Of a DNA stretch of 64,000 nt, positions 60,073 through 64,000 are shown piece after piece. The position numbers were made by a program, and so were the translations under genes. Source of the DNA: an uncultured Pelagibacteraceae bacterium (GTDB lineage Bacteria > Pseudomonadota > Alphaproteobacteria > Pelagibacterales > Pelagibacteraceae); the NCBI GenBank assembly GCA_902524945.1, contig CABZFF010000001.1, positions 62,001 through 126,000 on the forward strand, given 5' to 3'. Under the pieces are notes generated by a model. It ran no database searches. It saw nothing but the letters and a program-made list of their open reading frames with translations, and had not been told where the DNA came from. How positions within the stretch are numbered: the first letter of the stretch is position 1; each line of letters starts with the position of its first letter.

Positions 60073-60605
60073 AAATTATTAAAACTAAGATAAAAGATTT
60101 ATATATTATAAAACAAAATAAATATACGGATAACAGAGGTAATCTAAGAGTAACTTTTAATAACCGAGTCCTTAAAAATAAAAACTTTGTGTATGAATAC
60201 TGTACAACTTCAAAAGCAAAAGCATTAAGAGGTTTCCATTTTCAATATAAATATCAGCAGGCTAAGTACATATGTGTTGTAAAAGGTAAAATTTTAGATT
60301 GTGTTATTGATTTAAGAAAAAATTCTAAAACTTTCGGAAAAACATTTAAAATTTTATTATCAGATAAAAACTGCTTAGGATTATATGTTCCTGAGGGATT
60401 TGCTCATGGATATTATAGTTATGAAAAATTAAATATAATTTATTACAAATTAACTAATTATTACAAACCTAAATTTGAGAGCGGAATTAACTTACTAGAT
60501 AATCAATTAAAAATAAAATGGCCAAGTAAAAGTTTAAATATCTCGAAAAAAGATAGAAAATTAATTTCTTTAAAAGAATTTAAACAAAGCTATAAATATT
60601 TATAG
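60069..60605 (+). CDS. rfbC: dTDP-4-dehydrorhamnose 3,5-epimerase-like protein
   Basis: A 178-residue cupin. DNRGNLRVTF near residue 22, ALRGFHFQ near residue 58 with the catalytic histidine, VVKGKILDCVIDLRKNS and YVPEGFAHGYYS near residue 117 are RmlC motifs; the tyrosine in YYKLTNYY provides the acid. Versions acting on one carbon only (3- or 5-epimerases, or 3,4-ketoisomerases) cannot be excluded. The last codons lie in a 20-base palindrome shared with the convergent gene. Confidence 0.85.
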   Translation: MKIIKTKIKDLYIIKQNKYTDNRGNLRVTFNNRVLKNKNFVYEYCTTSKAKALRGFHFQYKYQQAKYICVVKGKILDCVIDLRKNSKTFGKTFKILLSDKNCLGLYVPEGFAHGYYSYEKLNIIYYKLTNYYKPKFESGINLLDNQLKIKWPSKSLNISKKDRKLISLKEFKQSYKYL

Positions 60606-60607
60606 CT
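60588..60607. repeat. 20-base perfect palindrome spanning two convergent stop codons
   Basis: AGCTATAAATATTTATAGCT reads the same on both strands. On the plus strand it ends rfbC as SYKYL-stop; on the minus strand it ends the DUF4422-like gene as SYKYL-stop. The two genes overlap by 16 bases here. In RNA it could fold into a hairpin for either message. Confidence 0.95.
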
Positions 60608-61411
60608 AGATATATCTTTTACAATAATTGGCTTTTCAATAATTCGATGATTTTTTTGAAACCAATATGATAAAAAACGTTCAGCTAAAAAACCGTAAAT
60701 TCTTTGGAGACCGTACCCTTTTAATTTATCAAATGGAAAAATGTCCTCGCATTTCTCTAACCATGGAAAGATTTCATTGTAGTAATCGTTTAATATTTTA
60801 GTTTTACAGATAAACATATTGTGTGGGTAAAAAGAAGTTTCTATATTCATATAATTTGCAAAGTCTTGTCTATTTTTTATATCAAGTGTTTCTATGGCTT
60901 TATCCAAATTTCCTTTACCATGAAATAAATCAAAGTGAAATTTTAAATTCCTCTTTCTTTTATTAAAAAGAATATTTGGATTAAGAAAAAAATCAAATAA
61001 ATGATTTTTTAATATCTTAGATAGTTTATAATTTTGAACTGAAAATTTTGTTCCTAATATACAATCAAAATTTTCAGGTAAAAAATTAATTTCATTAATT
61101 AATAAATTTTTTAAATTTTCAAAATTTATATTTCTTTCATCGATTTTTTTCTTAACAAAAAATTTTCTATATTGACAAAAACCAACCCAAGGGGTCTTTA
61201 TTTCATTCATATAATTTTTCCATAGCCAATAATGAAAGGTGTATTCGCCATAATAAGGATTTTTTTGAGATATATTTTTACCCTGTTTATCTGATAAACA
61301 ATCATAAGAAAATTTTTTATTGCCAAGACCAACCGGTATAAGAGATAGTTTTTTAATTAAATTTTCGTGATCTGGGTCAAGAGTGAGACAAAAAATTGAA
61401 ACATTTTTCAT
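60590..61411 (-). CDS. DUF4422-like glycosyltransferase
   Basis: A 273-residue protein resembling DUF4422 family proteins. YYGEYTFHYWLWKN near residue 52, TPWVGFCQYRKFF near residue 74, FYPHNMFICKTKIL near residue 196 and QRIYGFLAERFLSYW near residue 240 are the family segments; such proteins occur in LPS and capsule clusters and are believed to be glycosyltransferases. The ATG lies only 12 bases after the 3' CCA of the tRNA-Met gene on the same strand, so it is probably transcribed with it. No Shine-Dalgarno site is present. Confidence 0.78.
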   Translation of the reverse strand: MKNVSIFCLTLDPDHENLIKKLSLIPVGLGNKKFSYDCLSDKQGKNISQKNPYYGEYTFHYWLWKNYMNEIKTPWVGFCQYRKFFVKKKIDERNINFENLKNLLINEINFLPENFDCILGTKFSVQNYKLSKILKNHLFDFFLNPNILFNKRKRNLKFHFDLFHGKGNLDKAIETLDIKNRQDFANYMNIETSFYPHNMFICKTKILNDYYNEIFPWLEKCEDIFPFDKLKGYGLQRIYGFLAERFLSYWFQKNHRIIEKPIIVKDISSYKYL

Positions 61412-61423
61412 AATTTTGAAATT

Positions 61424-61500
61424 TGGTAGCGAGGGGCGGATTCGAACCGCCGACCCCAGGCTTATGAGTCCTGTGCTCTAACCAACTGAGCTACCTCGCC
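61424..61500 (-). tRNA. tRNA-Met (CAT anticodon)
   Basis: The 77-base minus-strand sequence folds as a full cloverleaf with a seven-pair acceptor stem GGCGAGG/CCTCGCT (first pair G-U), discriminator A and encoded CCA. The D arm is GCTC...GAGC, the anticodon loop CTCATAA places CAT at 61466-61464, and the T arm is GGCGG-TTCGAAT-CCGCC. The G-U at the acceptor end and overall form resemble elongator methionine tRNA; a lysidine-modified isoleucine tRNA is less likely. The last anticodon-stem position pairs A31 with G39, which is not a standard pair. Confidence 0.92.
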
Positions 61501-61546: not shown

Positions 61547-62134
61547 TTAATTAAGATTTTCGACTGCGAAACAGTATTTAGAAAATCTTATTTTTTGAAA
61601 GGGAAAAAGCCTAATTAAGTCGTCTAAATTTTTATCTATTGAGGTTTTCAATTCAACGATAGATTTATTATCATAGTAAATTATTGCATTAGTAAAATTT
61701 TTATATGAAATCTTTTTATCAATTGAAATTCTAACATCTTTAATTTTTGCATACTCCCTCTCATAACTTACAAAAAAATTTGGTAAACATGTCCCATAAG
61801 TGCTATCAAGAATTCCGTTTTTTTTAAAATAATCAAATTCTTCTTTATTAATTTTTTTTCTTTTTTTAAATCTTCCTTCAACTGACGATGTTTTGATTTC
61901 TAGATAAAAATTTTTATCGTCTGAGTTTGGATAATTTCTTATTCTGATTTTTTTTCTAGGTACTGAACCTTCAACTGAATCCTTATACATTTCAAGTTTA
62001 AGATTATCAAAGTATAAACTATTTATTAATCTTTTTTGAAATAACTGCTTTGCAGAATTTTTTAATAAAAATTCCCTAAATTGAAGTAAGTTTTCAGGTT
62101 TAAAAAATAATTTTTCCTCTATTCTAAAACTCAT
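61547..62134 (-). CDS. VTC-domain protein (polyphosphate-polymerase-like, TTM fold)
   Basis: A 195-residue protein with the VTC (triphosphate tunnel metalloenzyme) pattern: RIEEK at residues 4-8, SLYFDN near residue 39, RKKIRIRNY near residue 60, YLEIKTS near residue 77, a long basic stretch GRFKKRKKI, SIVELKTS near residue 163 and the terminal SKYCFAVE. In yeast Vtc4 this domain makes polyphosphate; bacterial versions are mostly uncharacterised. It is eight bases after a CotH-like gene on the same strand and precedes the tRNA by 46 bases. Polyphosphate synthesis here is inference. Confidence 0.8.
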   Translation of the reverse strand: MSFRIEEKLFFKPENLLQFREFLLKNSAKQLFQKRLINSLYFDNLKLEMYKDSVEGSVPRKKIRIRNYPNSDDKNFYLEIKTSSVEGRFKKRKKINKEEFDYFKKNGILDSTYGTCLPNFFVSYEREYAKIKDVRISIDKKISYKNFTNAIIYYDNKSIVELKTSIDKNLDDLIRLFPFQKIRFSKYCFAVENLN

Positions 62135-62142
62135 AATATTTA

Positions 62143-64000
62143 CTATAAATTTTTATTTTCATTTACTAAAGAATAATTATCAAAACTTACTTTTTCATTT
62201 TTGAAATCACAATCCATTTTGTTAAAATTTATTATTCCGCCCTCAAATTCTTGTTTTTTTTTGTAAGCAGATAAACAAGTATTAACAAGGTTAAAAGTAA
62301 TTCTTTTTGTAGTTACTATTGAACTATCTTTAGATGCAATACCTATCATAGAATTGTTTGCATTGATGTTTTCTAAAATTAATTCTGACTTTTCTCCAAC
62401 TGACAGAGCTTTATCACCACAATTTTCTAGATTTAAATTTTTTATTACGTAATTTCCGTAAGAAAAATCTGCGCAATCATTTTTGGCGAAATTAACATTT
62501 ATGTTTTTAATTTTCAAATTTGAAAAATCTATATCCAAAGCATCACTATAAGATGCATTGATTGTTACATCTTCTATTTCTCCGGATATATTTATAAAAT
62601 TGATTGAGTCCTCGCACGATGAATTAGATGCACTAAGCGAAATATTTTCAACTTCAAGATTTATAAGCGATAAACAACCTGTTAAACCGCTTTCATTAAT
62701 TGGAAACCCCTTTAGATTGGTATTTTCTTTTTCTAAAGGTTGTTCAAAGCCTTCGAAATTAATAATCGTATCTTTAATTGTTCCATTAATAAAAAAAACT
62801 TTGGCACCTGAAATATTTTGTCTAATATTAATGATATTTTCATTTTCGTTAGTAAAAACACTTATACCATTTTCATAAAAAATAGAACTTTCTTTAAATT
62901 TTTTAAATTTATAATTATTAGAAAAATTTTTAAAATTAAAATCATTACCCAAATATTGAAATGAGGAGTTGTTTTTTGTTAATTCACCCTCTAGTAGATT
63001 AGAAAGCTCGATTGTTGAAAAATCTATGTCTAAACACTTTTCAAGATAAATTTCACATTTTTGAAAATTGTTTATATTAAAGTTATTTTTTATTAAATAT
63101 GTTTCTGGGTGATTTGCTTTTAAATTTTTATGGTAGTTTGCCAAGATATTATCAAGCTCTTTAGTTTGGTTATGTTTTATGAGCTTATTTGATGGGTATT
63201 TGAGATAATTTTTTTCTAATTTTTTTAAATTTACTAAAATTTTTTGTATTTTTTTTTCCAATTTATCTTTTGAATAATTGAGGCCTGAAAGTTGCAAATT
63301 ATTTAATACTCTGGAATGATTAATTTTTTTAATTTTATTATTTAAATTACTAAATGAATTAAAAAATTTTTCACTTATTGGATATCTAAATACACCATCT
63401 GGAATTTCAGCATCAATATTAGCGTTAGAGTCGTAATTAACTGGCTCAAAATAATTTTCTATTGAATTCCAGTAAAATTTTCTATTATTTGCGGCTAAAC
63501 CATGTGTACTATTAGTTGATTGCATGAAAAGGTTATATTCATCTAGTTTCGAAATTTTATGTTTATTGTAATTTCCTAACAAAGTATTATCTAGGTCATA
63601 ATCGAAATAATTAAAATTATTTAGTTCATCTTGAAATCTATTTGAAAAATAAAGGTAAACTATATTTAAATTAGCGACTGCGTTTAAAGACATCTTTTTA
63701 TGTCCTTCGCTTTTTTCTAAAATATTAGTATTTATTTGTTTTGATAGCATGTATTTGGAACTTTGGTTCATTAAAGGTACTACCCCCATGTCCCATCCAC
63801 TCAGATGATTATCCTCTATTTTACTGACCGCCTTGAAAAAAAATCTTTCGTCTGCTTCTAGAATTGGCCCTTCTCTTCTCTTATTATACTCTAGCATTTC
63901 TTTGGCGGCCTTTTCTTGAAATAACATTGTGCTTGTAATTTTATTTACTCTTGCCTGCATTTTTATTGTTCTAGGTGCTAAAAAATTTAAATTTCTTAAA
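62143..64000 (-). CDS. CotH-like protein with C-terminal beta-helix (partial)
   Basis: The stop is at 62143 and the frame is open to the window edge, with at least 619 codons. The first ATG at 63960 is internal: codons before it read LRNLNFLAPRTIK, which fits the CotH family. GWDMGVVPLMN lies near residue 75 of the visible part, and HGLAANNRKFYWN with FEPVNYDSN near residue 190 resembles the CotH kinase active-site region. The last 230 or so residues are short repeats (INISGEIEDVTINAS, LDIDFSNLKIKNIN, NCGDKALSVGEKS) typical of a right-handed beta-helix. Pairing with a VTC-domain gene is seen in other bacteria. Function unknown; an extracellular or surface-linked kinase is possible. Confidence 0.7.
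   Translation of the reverse strand, partial: LRNLNFLAPRTIKMQARVNKITSTMLFQEKAAKEMLEYNKRREGPILEADERFFFKAVSKIEDNHLSGWDMGVVPLMNQSSKYMLSKQINTNILEKSEGHKKMSLNAVANLNIVYLYFSNRFQDELNNFNYFDYDLDNTLLGNYNKHKISKLDEYNLFMQSTNSTHGLAANNRKFYWNSIENYFEPVNYDSNANIDAEIPDGVFRYPISEKFFNSFSNLNNKIKKINHSRVLNNLQLSGLNYSKDKLEKKIQKILVNLKKLEKNYLKYPSNKLIKHNQTKELDNILANYHKNLKANHPETYLIKNNFNINNFQKCEIYLEKCLDIDFSTIELSNLLEGELTKNNSSFQYLGNDFNFKNFSNNYKFKKFKESSIFYENGISVFTNENENIINIRQNISGAKVFFINGTIKDTIINFEGFEQPLEKENTNLKGFPINESGLTGCLSLINLEVENISLSASNSSCEDSINFINISGEIEDVTINASYSDALDIDFSNLKIKNINVNFAKNDCADFSYGNYVIKNLNLENCGDKALSVGEKSELILENINANNSMIGIASKDSSIVTTKRITFNLVNTCLSAYKKKQEFEGGIINFNKMDCDFKNEKVSFDNYSLVNENKNL

Follow-up and report, generated by a model that had tools for sequence, protein, structure and literature searches.

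What joins a VTC-domain gene to a large CotH-like gene in the genome of a SAR11 bacterium? The question is raised by a locus at the end of the window (the whole stretch of 64,000 nucleotides analyzed here, from a source genome of 1.01 Mb in 30 contigs), where a gene for a VTC-domain protein of the TTM fold (61547-62134, minus strand, 195 aa; Pfam PF09359, E=4.9e-23) is separated by 8 bases (62135-62142) from a large open reading frame of the same strand that ends at 62143 and extends beyond the window; the part inside it (62143-64000) encodes the last 618 residues of a 778-aa protein. In full, the gene spans L003:6143-8479(-), equivalent to window positions 62143-64479, and 3 bases upstream of it, just past the window edge, is a gene for a DUF4956 protein (L003:8483-9100, minus strand, 205 aa, E=2.8e-10). 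The first-pass annotation had pointed out the close pairing of the VTC and large genes, had expected a DUF4956 partner beyond position 64000, and had stated that these families travel together. The first two are borne out by these coordinates, and an association of CotH, polyphosphate polymerase and DUF4956 genes is in print (PMC7112168).

A compact module at many chromosomal sites

The order DUF4956, CotH-like/beta-helix, VTC, all on one strand, is found in 53 of the 60 loci present in genome contigs, the other seven being cut by contig ends, and the median intergenic gaps are -1 and +1 base. The three families also occur in nearly the same genomes, with VTC genes in 22, DUF4956 genes in 23 and large-protein genes in 23 of 101 congeners. 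The hosts are mostly SAR11, but also include Prochlorococcus MIT 9201, SAR116, a Caulobacterales MAG, and a MAG labelled Flavobacteriales, and a sample of the whole phylum contributed four more genomes with VTC- and DUF4956-linked relatives. Most similar to the large protein, at 65-67% identity, are proteins of uncultured Pelagibacteraceae (SAR11) single cells, and one of these genomes (G070, source of the L035 contig) is listed under the same genus.

The neighborhood of the module is variable. At the window locus, the gene next after DUF4956, reading outward past the window edge, encodes a GT61 glycosyltransferase, and a DUF4422 gene (60590-61411) adjoins the module on the other side, as it adjoins the VTC gene in the related copies L036 and L048. 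It had been proposed that such glycan genes hint at function, a clue that we had to abandon, since other copies reside at unrelated sites, among housekeeping genes (valS/ilvD, guaA/panB, pnp/fabI, or gatB). DUF4422 is found near copies of the window type. A tRNA-Met gene (61424-61500, minus strand, detected by ARAGORN) lies 46 bases past the end of the VTC gene, and in several other copies tRNA-Met, -Thr or -Arg abut this end, as at the insertion site of a mobile element. As the flanking genes differ and different tRNAs often abut the VTC end, we read the module as a self-contained, mobile unit, the tRNA being probably an insertion hot spot with no part in the mechanism.

Several copies depart from the common layout. 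On its contig C6, the source genome itself contains another, diverged cassette (L004:7133-14751), encoding a DUF4956 protein, a TPR-like protein, a CotH plus beta-helix protein of 884 aa that is matched by Pfam CotH (E=3e-12), a VTC protein of 248 aa, and an 824-aa protein that resembles phosphoethanolamine transferases (CptA/EptA). Near a truncated cassette, an extra DUF4956 gene is present on the opposite strand (L092:4002-4676), and the gene that follows VTC in Prochlorococcus MIT 9201 (L071:8731-9648) matches calcineurin-like phosphoesterases weakly, at a score under the cut-off. Carriage of the module by viruses was considered and rejected: the sole fragment on a viral contig, L095, is probably a chimera, its first open reading frame (L095:1-726) being a piece of the beta-helix tail joined in frame to a phage tail-like sequence, probably by assembly.

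The VTC and DUF4956 proteins

The VTC assignment is well above threshold (82.3 bits versus a cut-off of 23), and the active-site residues, which had been named as a point where loss might be seen, are kept. In an alignment of 14 rows, R60, K62, R64, R66, E79, K81, K90, R126, R135, D139, E161, K163, S185, and K186 are invariant, and a profile of the family aligns with the solved yeast VTC4 (3g3q, E=2.9e-7), the first part of the invariant set falling within the aligned region. We take these residues to have the roles that their counterparts have in yeast, i.e., basic residues of the tunnel, a metal-binding glutamate, and a C-terminal SK motif. Enzymes of this type, such as VTC4, make polyphosphate from ATP. 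The VTC protein of the window contains no hydrophobic segment, and it is best described as a putative cytoplasmic polyphosphate polymerase.

The DUF4956 protein (40.6 bits versus a cut-off of 30.6 for PF16316) possesses about five membrane segments followed by a C-terminal ACT-like domain. In a fold search, matches of the ACT/Lrp type were to the C-terminal domain only, none with E below 0.001, and the membrane part was unmatched. The paralog encoded on contig C6 resembles MgtC (NF007431, E=5e-8; Pfam MgtC, 4.5e-4), both matches being below the curated cut-offs. MgtC is usually regarded as a regulator.

The large protein: a CotH fold with a beta-helix, likely exported

The large protein of the window has no match in Pfam, the cut-off for the CotH kinase family (PF08757) not being reached, comparison with NCBIfam profiles named nothing in the window, and a profile of the family did not find CotH among PDB sequences; with hhalign, the QE region alone aligned with the printed fragment of Bacillus cereus CotH. 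A CotH fold had been claimed, with structure prediction set beforehand as the test. A model was made with AlphaFold2 from 45 relatives, on the ortholog L036, which is 67% identical to the window copy (pLDDT 90.8, pTM 0.89). With Foldseek, the only PDB entries matching this model with E below 0.001 are the two B. cereus CotH structures (5jda, 6.2e-8; 5jd9, 1.0e-7; probability 1.00), at a TM-score by target of 0.57-0.58, and it is thus the fold comparison that settled what the sequence-profile comparisons had not. Next in the same search come beta-helices of family 3 pectate lyases (E of 3e-3), and the tail of the window protein aligns to the Pfam-recognized beta-helix of a paralog. Both a CotH fold and a beta-helix are therefore supported by the model and these alignments, the kinase-fold region extending to about residue 480 (63040-64000, minus strand, for the part inside the window; alignments and matches to 5jda/5jd9) and the right-handed beta-helix spanning about residues 596-770 (62170-62694, minus strand; pectate lyase matches and conservation). 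The combination of the two in one chain had been thought unusual; within this module it is the rule.

This protein is likely exported. A hydrophobic, export-like stretch is present at the N-terminus of the window protein, and a signal-like N-terminus is found in 44 of 44 rows of relatives. The window protein contains exactly ten cysteines (31, 98, 475, 482, 602, 622, 669, 687, 735, and 757), six of them in the beta-helix tail, and nine of the ten fall in columns listed as conserved, a pattern that would agree with disulfide bonds formed in an oxidizing compartment.

Is the CotH-like part a kinase?

For B. subtilis CotH, a protein kinase, D228 and D251 are needed for activity (PMC7821199). An aspartate at the D228 position is found in none of the 45 rows of the large-protein alignment. 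Instead, an invariant histidine (H326 of the window protein, 63502-63504) is found at this position or one residue before it, the alignment containing a one-residue gap there. This histidine recurs in VTC-linked proteins of hosts other than SAR11 (L104, L115-L118), as well as in the C6 paralog, but not in L025 and L026, two relatives with VTC and DUF4956 genes nearby, in which a Glu-containing sequence replaces it and the YD motif is degenerate (MGSIEFDWRD, EPIGRE); these two are possibly inactive. The putative metal-binding aspartate of the YD motif, D350 (63430-63432), is invariant and, judging by order and spacing rather than direct alignment, probably matches D251. Residues 122-149 of the large protein make up the strand region that usually binds ATP in kinases, and the alignment shows no invariant lysine there.

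These residues bear directly on a rival reading, in which the large protein would be an ordinary kinase of the CotH type that uses ATP to phosphorylate surface proteins or glycans, with VTC and DUF4956 regulating it or providing something different. CotH being the best structural match, the R..GD and QE motifs and the metal-type aspartate of YD being invariant or nearly so, and the kinase activity of the B. subtilis protein (PMC7821199) all argue for such a role. We nevertheless judge it unlikely, with the catalytic aspartate replaced as described, with no invariant lysine in the strand region, with ATP not expected in the periplasm, and with an exported pyrophosphatase (see below) left unexplained. 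The absence of the known catalytic aspartate casts doubt on a kinase activity like that of CotH, and as an invariant strand lysine is missing as well, we use the name CotH-like and make no claim of kinase activity.

It is the beta-helix that is the most conserved part of the protein, with a mean column identity of 0.57 versus 0.36-0.48 in the kinase-fold lobes, and with 36 columns conserved at 95% or above versus 21 in the kinase fold. It displays an invariant ladder of charged residues about one coil apart. This degree of conservation, together with pectate lyases among the PDB neighbors and a weak profile match to GH28 over the same stretch (E=1.1), would agree with the CotH part being a pseudokinase or a scaffold, and the beta-helix being the enzyme, of the pectate-lyase or polygalacturonase type, acting on glycans or phosphoesters. 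However, the kinase-fold part has invariant charged residues of its own, the catalytic sets of GH28 and PL3 are not reproduced in the beta-helix when judged by eye, and neither the VTC protein nor the pyrophosphatase would be explained, so we give this possibility little credence.

An exported pyrophosphatase in some relatives

One further clue comes from ten relatives in which a family I pyrophosphatase (PF00719, E about 1e-29 to 1e-33) that appears exported is part of the locus. In six of these (L040, L048, L050, L067, L072, and L090) it is fused to the end of the large protein, and in four it is encoded by a separate gene in the operon, either between the large gene and VTC (L065, L109) or after VTC (L108, L110), all four separate proteins beginning with hydrophobic, export-like stretches. 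Judged by eye, the pyrophosphatases contain the canonical motifs, of the GGDGDPLD, MKDFGENDDK, NYG, and NYKG type. In L097, a decayed remnant of 63 residues is seen. PF00719 is rare in these bacteria and goes with the module: only five of 297 Pelagibacteraceae genomes encode it, all five inside the module (two of these, by coordinates, being the genomes of L040 and L090), and none of the 101 congeners does, while the membrane pyrophosphatase (PF03030) is encoded by 19 of 31 congeners. The window copy and its own clade possess no pyrophosphatase. A single fusion event was considered and rejected, as the copies with a pyrophosphatase are dispersed over the tree, which requires at least 8 changes; the history is one of either repeated loss or repeated gain.

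An exported pyrophosphatase tied to the module strongly suggests that pyrophosphate is set free beyond the inner membrane, probably by the module itself. One such scenario would be a phosphate store: polyphosphate made by VTC would be exported and retained by the large protein or at the cell surface, then broken down to pyrophosphate and phosphate and taken up again. Both SAR11 and Prochlorococcus have been reported to lack intracellular polyphosphate and to maintain a large buffer of phosphate outside the cell (PMC4525184); the module is present in both groups, and the pyrophosphatase would free phosphate. However, only about a quarter of the sampled congeners possess the module, which cannot thus be the general buffer, the buffer reported is of phosphate, not polyphosphate (PMC4525184), and PPK1 is encoded by 14 of 31 congeners, so that gene content does not imply that intracellular polyphosphate is missing. 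Neither clear exclusion nor linkage is seen between polyphosphate kinase and the module. We regard the storage scenario as improbable.

A tentative mechanism

The reading we prefer, held tentatively and at somewhat less than even confidence, is that the three-gene module brings phosphoanhydride chemistry to the outer side of the inner membrane, from VTC via DUF4956 to the CotH-like protein. ATP is normally absent from the periplasm. The cytoplasmic VTC protein would make polyphosphate or a short oligophosphate from ATP, the DUF4956 protein would pass, gate, or control it at the membrane, and the exported CotH-like/beta-helix protein would spend it in the periplasm as a phosphate donor, modifying an acceptor that the beta-helix may hold. 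Pyrophosphate would be released, and in some relatives the exported pyrophosphatase would destroy it, pulling the reaction forward. The fixed gene order, the co-occurrence, the conserved VTC residues, the signs of export, and the pyrophosphatase fusion and linkage all count for this sequence of events. These, like the folds, come from the computations, while the release of pyrophosphate, the polyphosphate donor, the transport by DUF4956, and the acceptor are inferred. Against it count the fact that most copies, including that of the window, carry no pyrophosphatase, so that removal of pyrophosphate must be optional, and the DUF4956 protein, whose membrane part has no solved match and whose paralog resembles MgtC. 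The pyrophosphatase could also serve imported or environmental pyrophosphate instead.

A more specific version, in which phosphotransfer driven by polyphosphate takes place in an ATP-free compartment at a histidine-based active site of the CotH fold, and is made irreversible by the pyrophosphatase, strikes us as rather doubtful as it stands, if worth pursuing. If true, it would give a function to the widespread and unexplained association of CotH, VTC, and DUF4956. Independently, the exported pyrophosphatase offers a chemical clue that the donor is something else than ATP in the periplasm. The choice between polyphosphate and ATP as the donor can be tested directly and cheaply, and the carriers, SAR11 and Prochlorococcus, are very abundant ocean bacteria of phosphate-scarce waters. 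We know of no measured activity for any CotH/VTC/DUF4956 module.

Comparison with known systems

The association of CotH, VTC, and DUF4956 is known, while lacking an agreed function. In the open-licence literature we came upon no account of the form with a beta-helix, of the absence of the catalytic aspartate, or of an exported pyrophosphatase, and no paper on the module in SAR11 or on a link between CotH and pyrophosphatase. The closest precedent is presented by the Pel loci of Gram-positive bacteria, in which CotH, polyphosphate polymerase, and DUF4956 genes (along with DUF4832) are accessory genes (PMC7112168). The same three families are encoded by contiguous genes in both cases, and glycan genes are alongside in the Pel loci. 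However, the module described here stands alone, without Pel or DUF4832, at many unrelated chromosomal sites, its CotH-like protein carries a beta-helix, and an exported pyrophosphatase is an optional addition. The pyrophosphatase, in turn, shares canonical active-site motifs with other family I enzymes (PF00719), but it is exported and either fused to, or in an operon with, a CotH-like protein; when a review of microbial pyrophosphatases was searched by term, no exported or fused example came up.

The individual proteins display a similar mixture of the familiar and the divergent. With the spore coat kinase CotH of Bacillus (PF08757), the large protein shares the N-terminal fold, the R..GD and QE motifs, and probably the YD aspartate, but it has no Pfam match and no catalytic aspartate, an invariant histidine being beside its position, and it is exported, has a beta-helix tail, and is partnered by VTC and DUF4956. 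Likeness to MgtC/SapB is suggested by the matches of the C6 DUF4956 protein and by a model of the window-type protein that consists of membrane helices and a C-terminal ACT-like domain, although the matches are below curated cut-offs and DUF4956 is a separate Pfam family. Finally, the VTC protein has the catalytic domain of yeast VTC4 (3g3q, 5iig), with the conserved basic residues of the tunnel and the metal-binding glutamate, but it is small and soluble, lacking both SPX and membrane helices, and the membrane part of the system may be supplied here by DUF4956.
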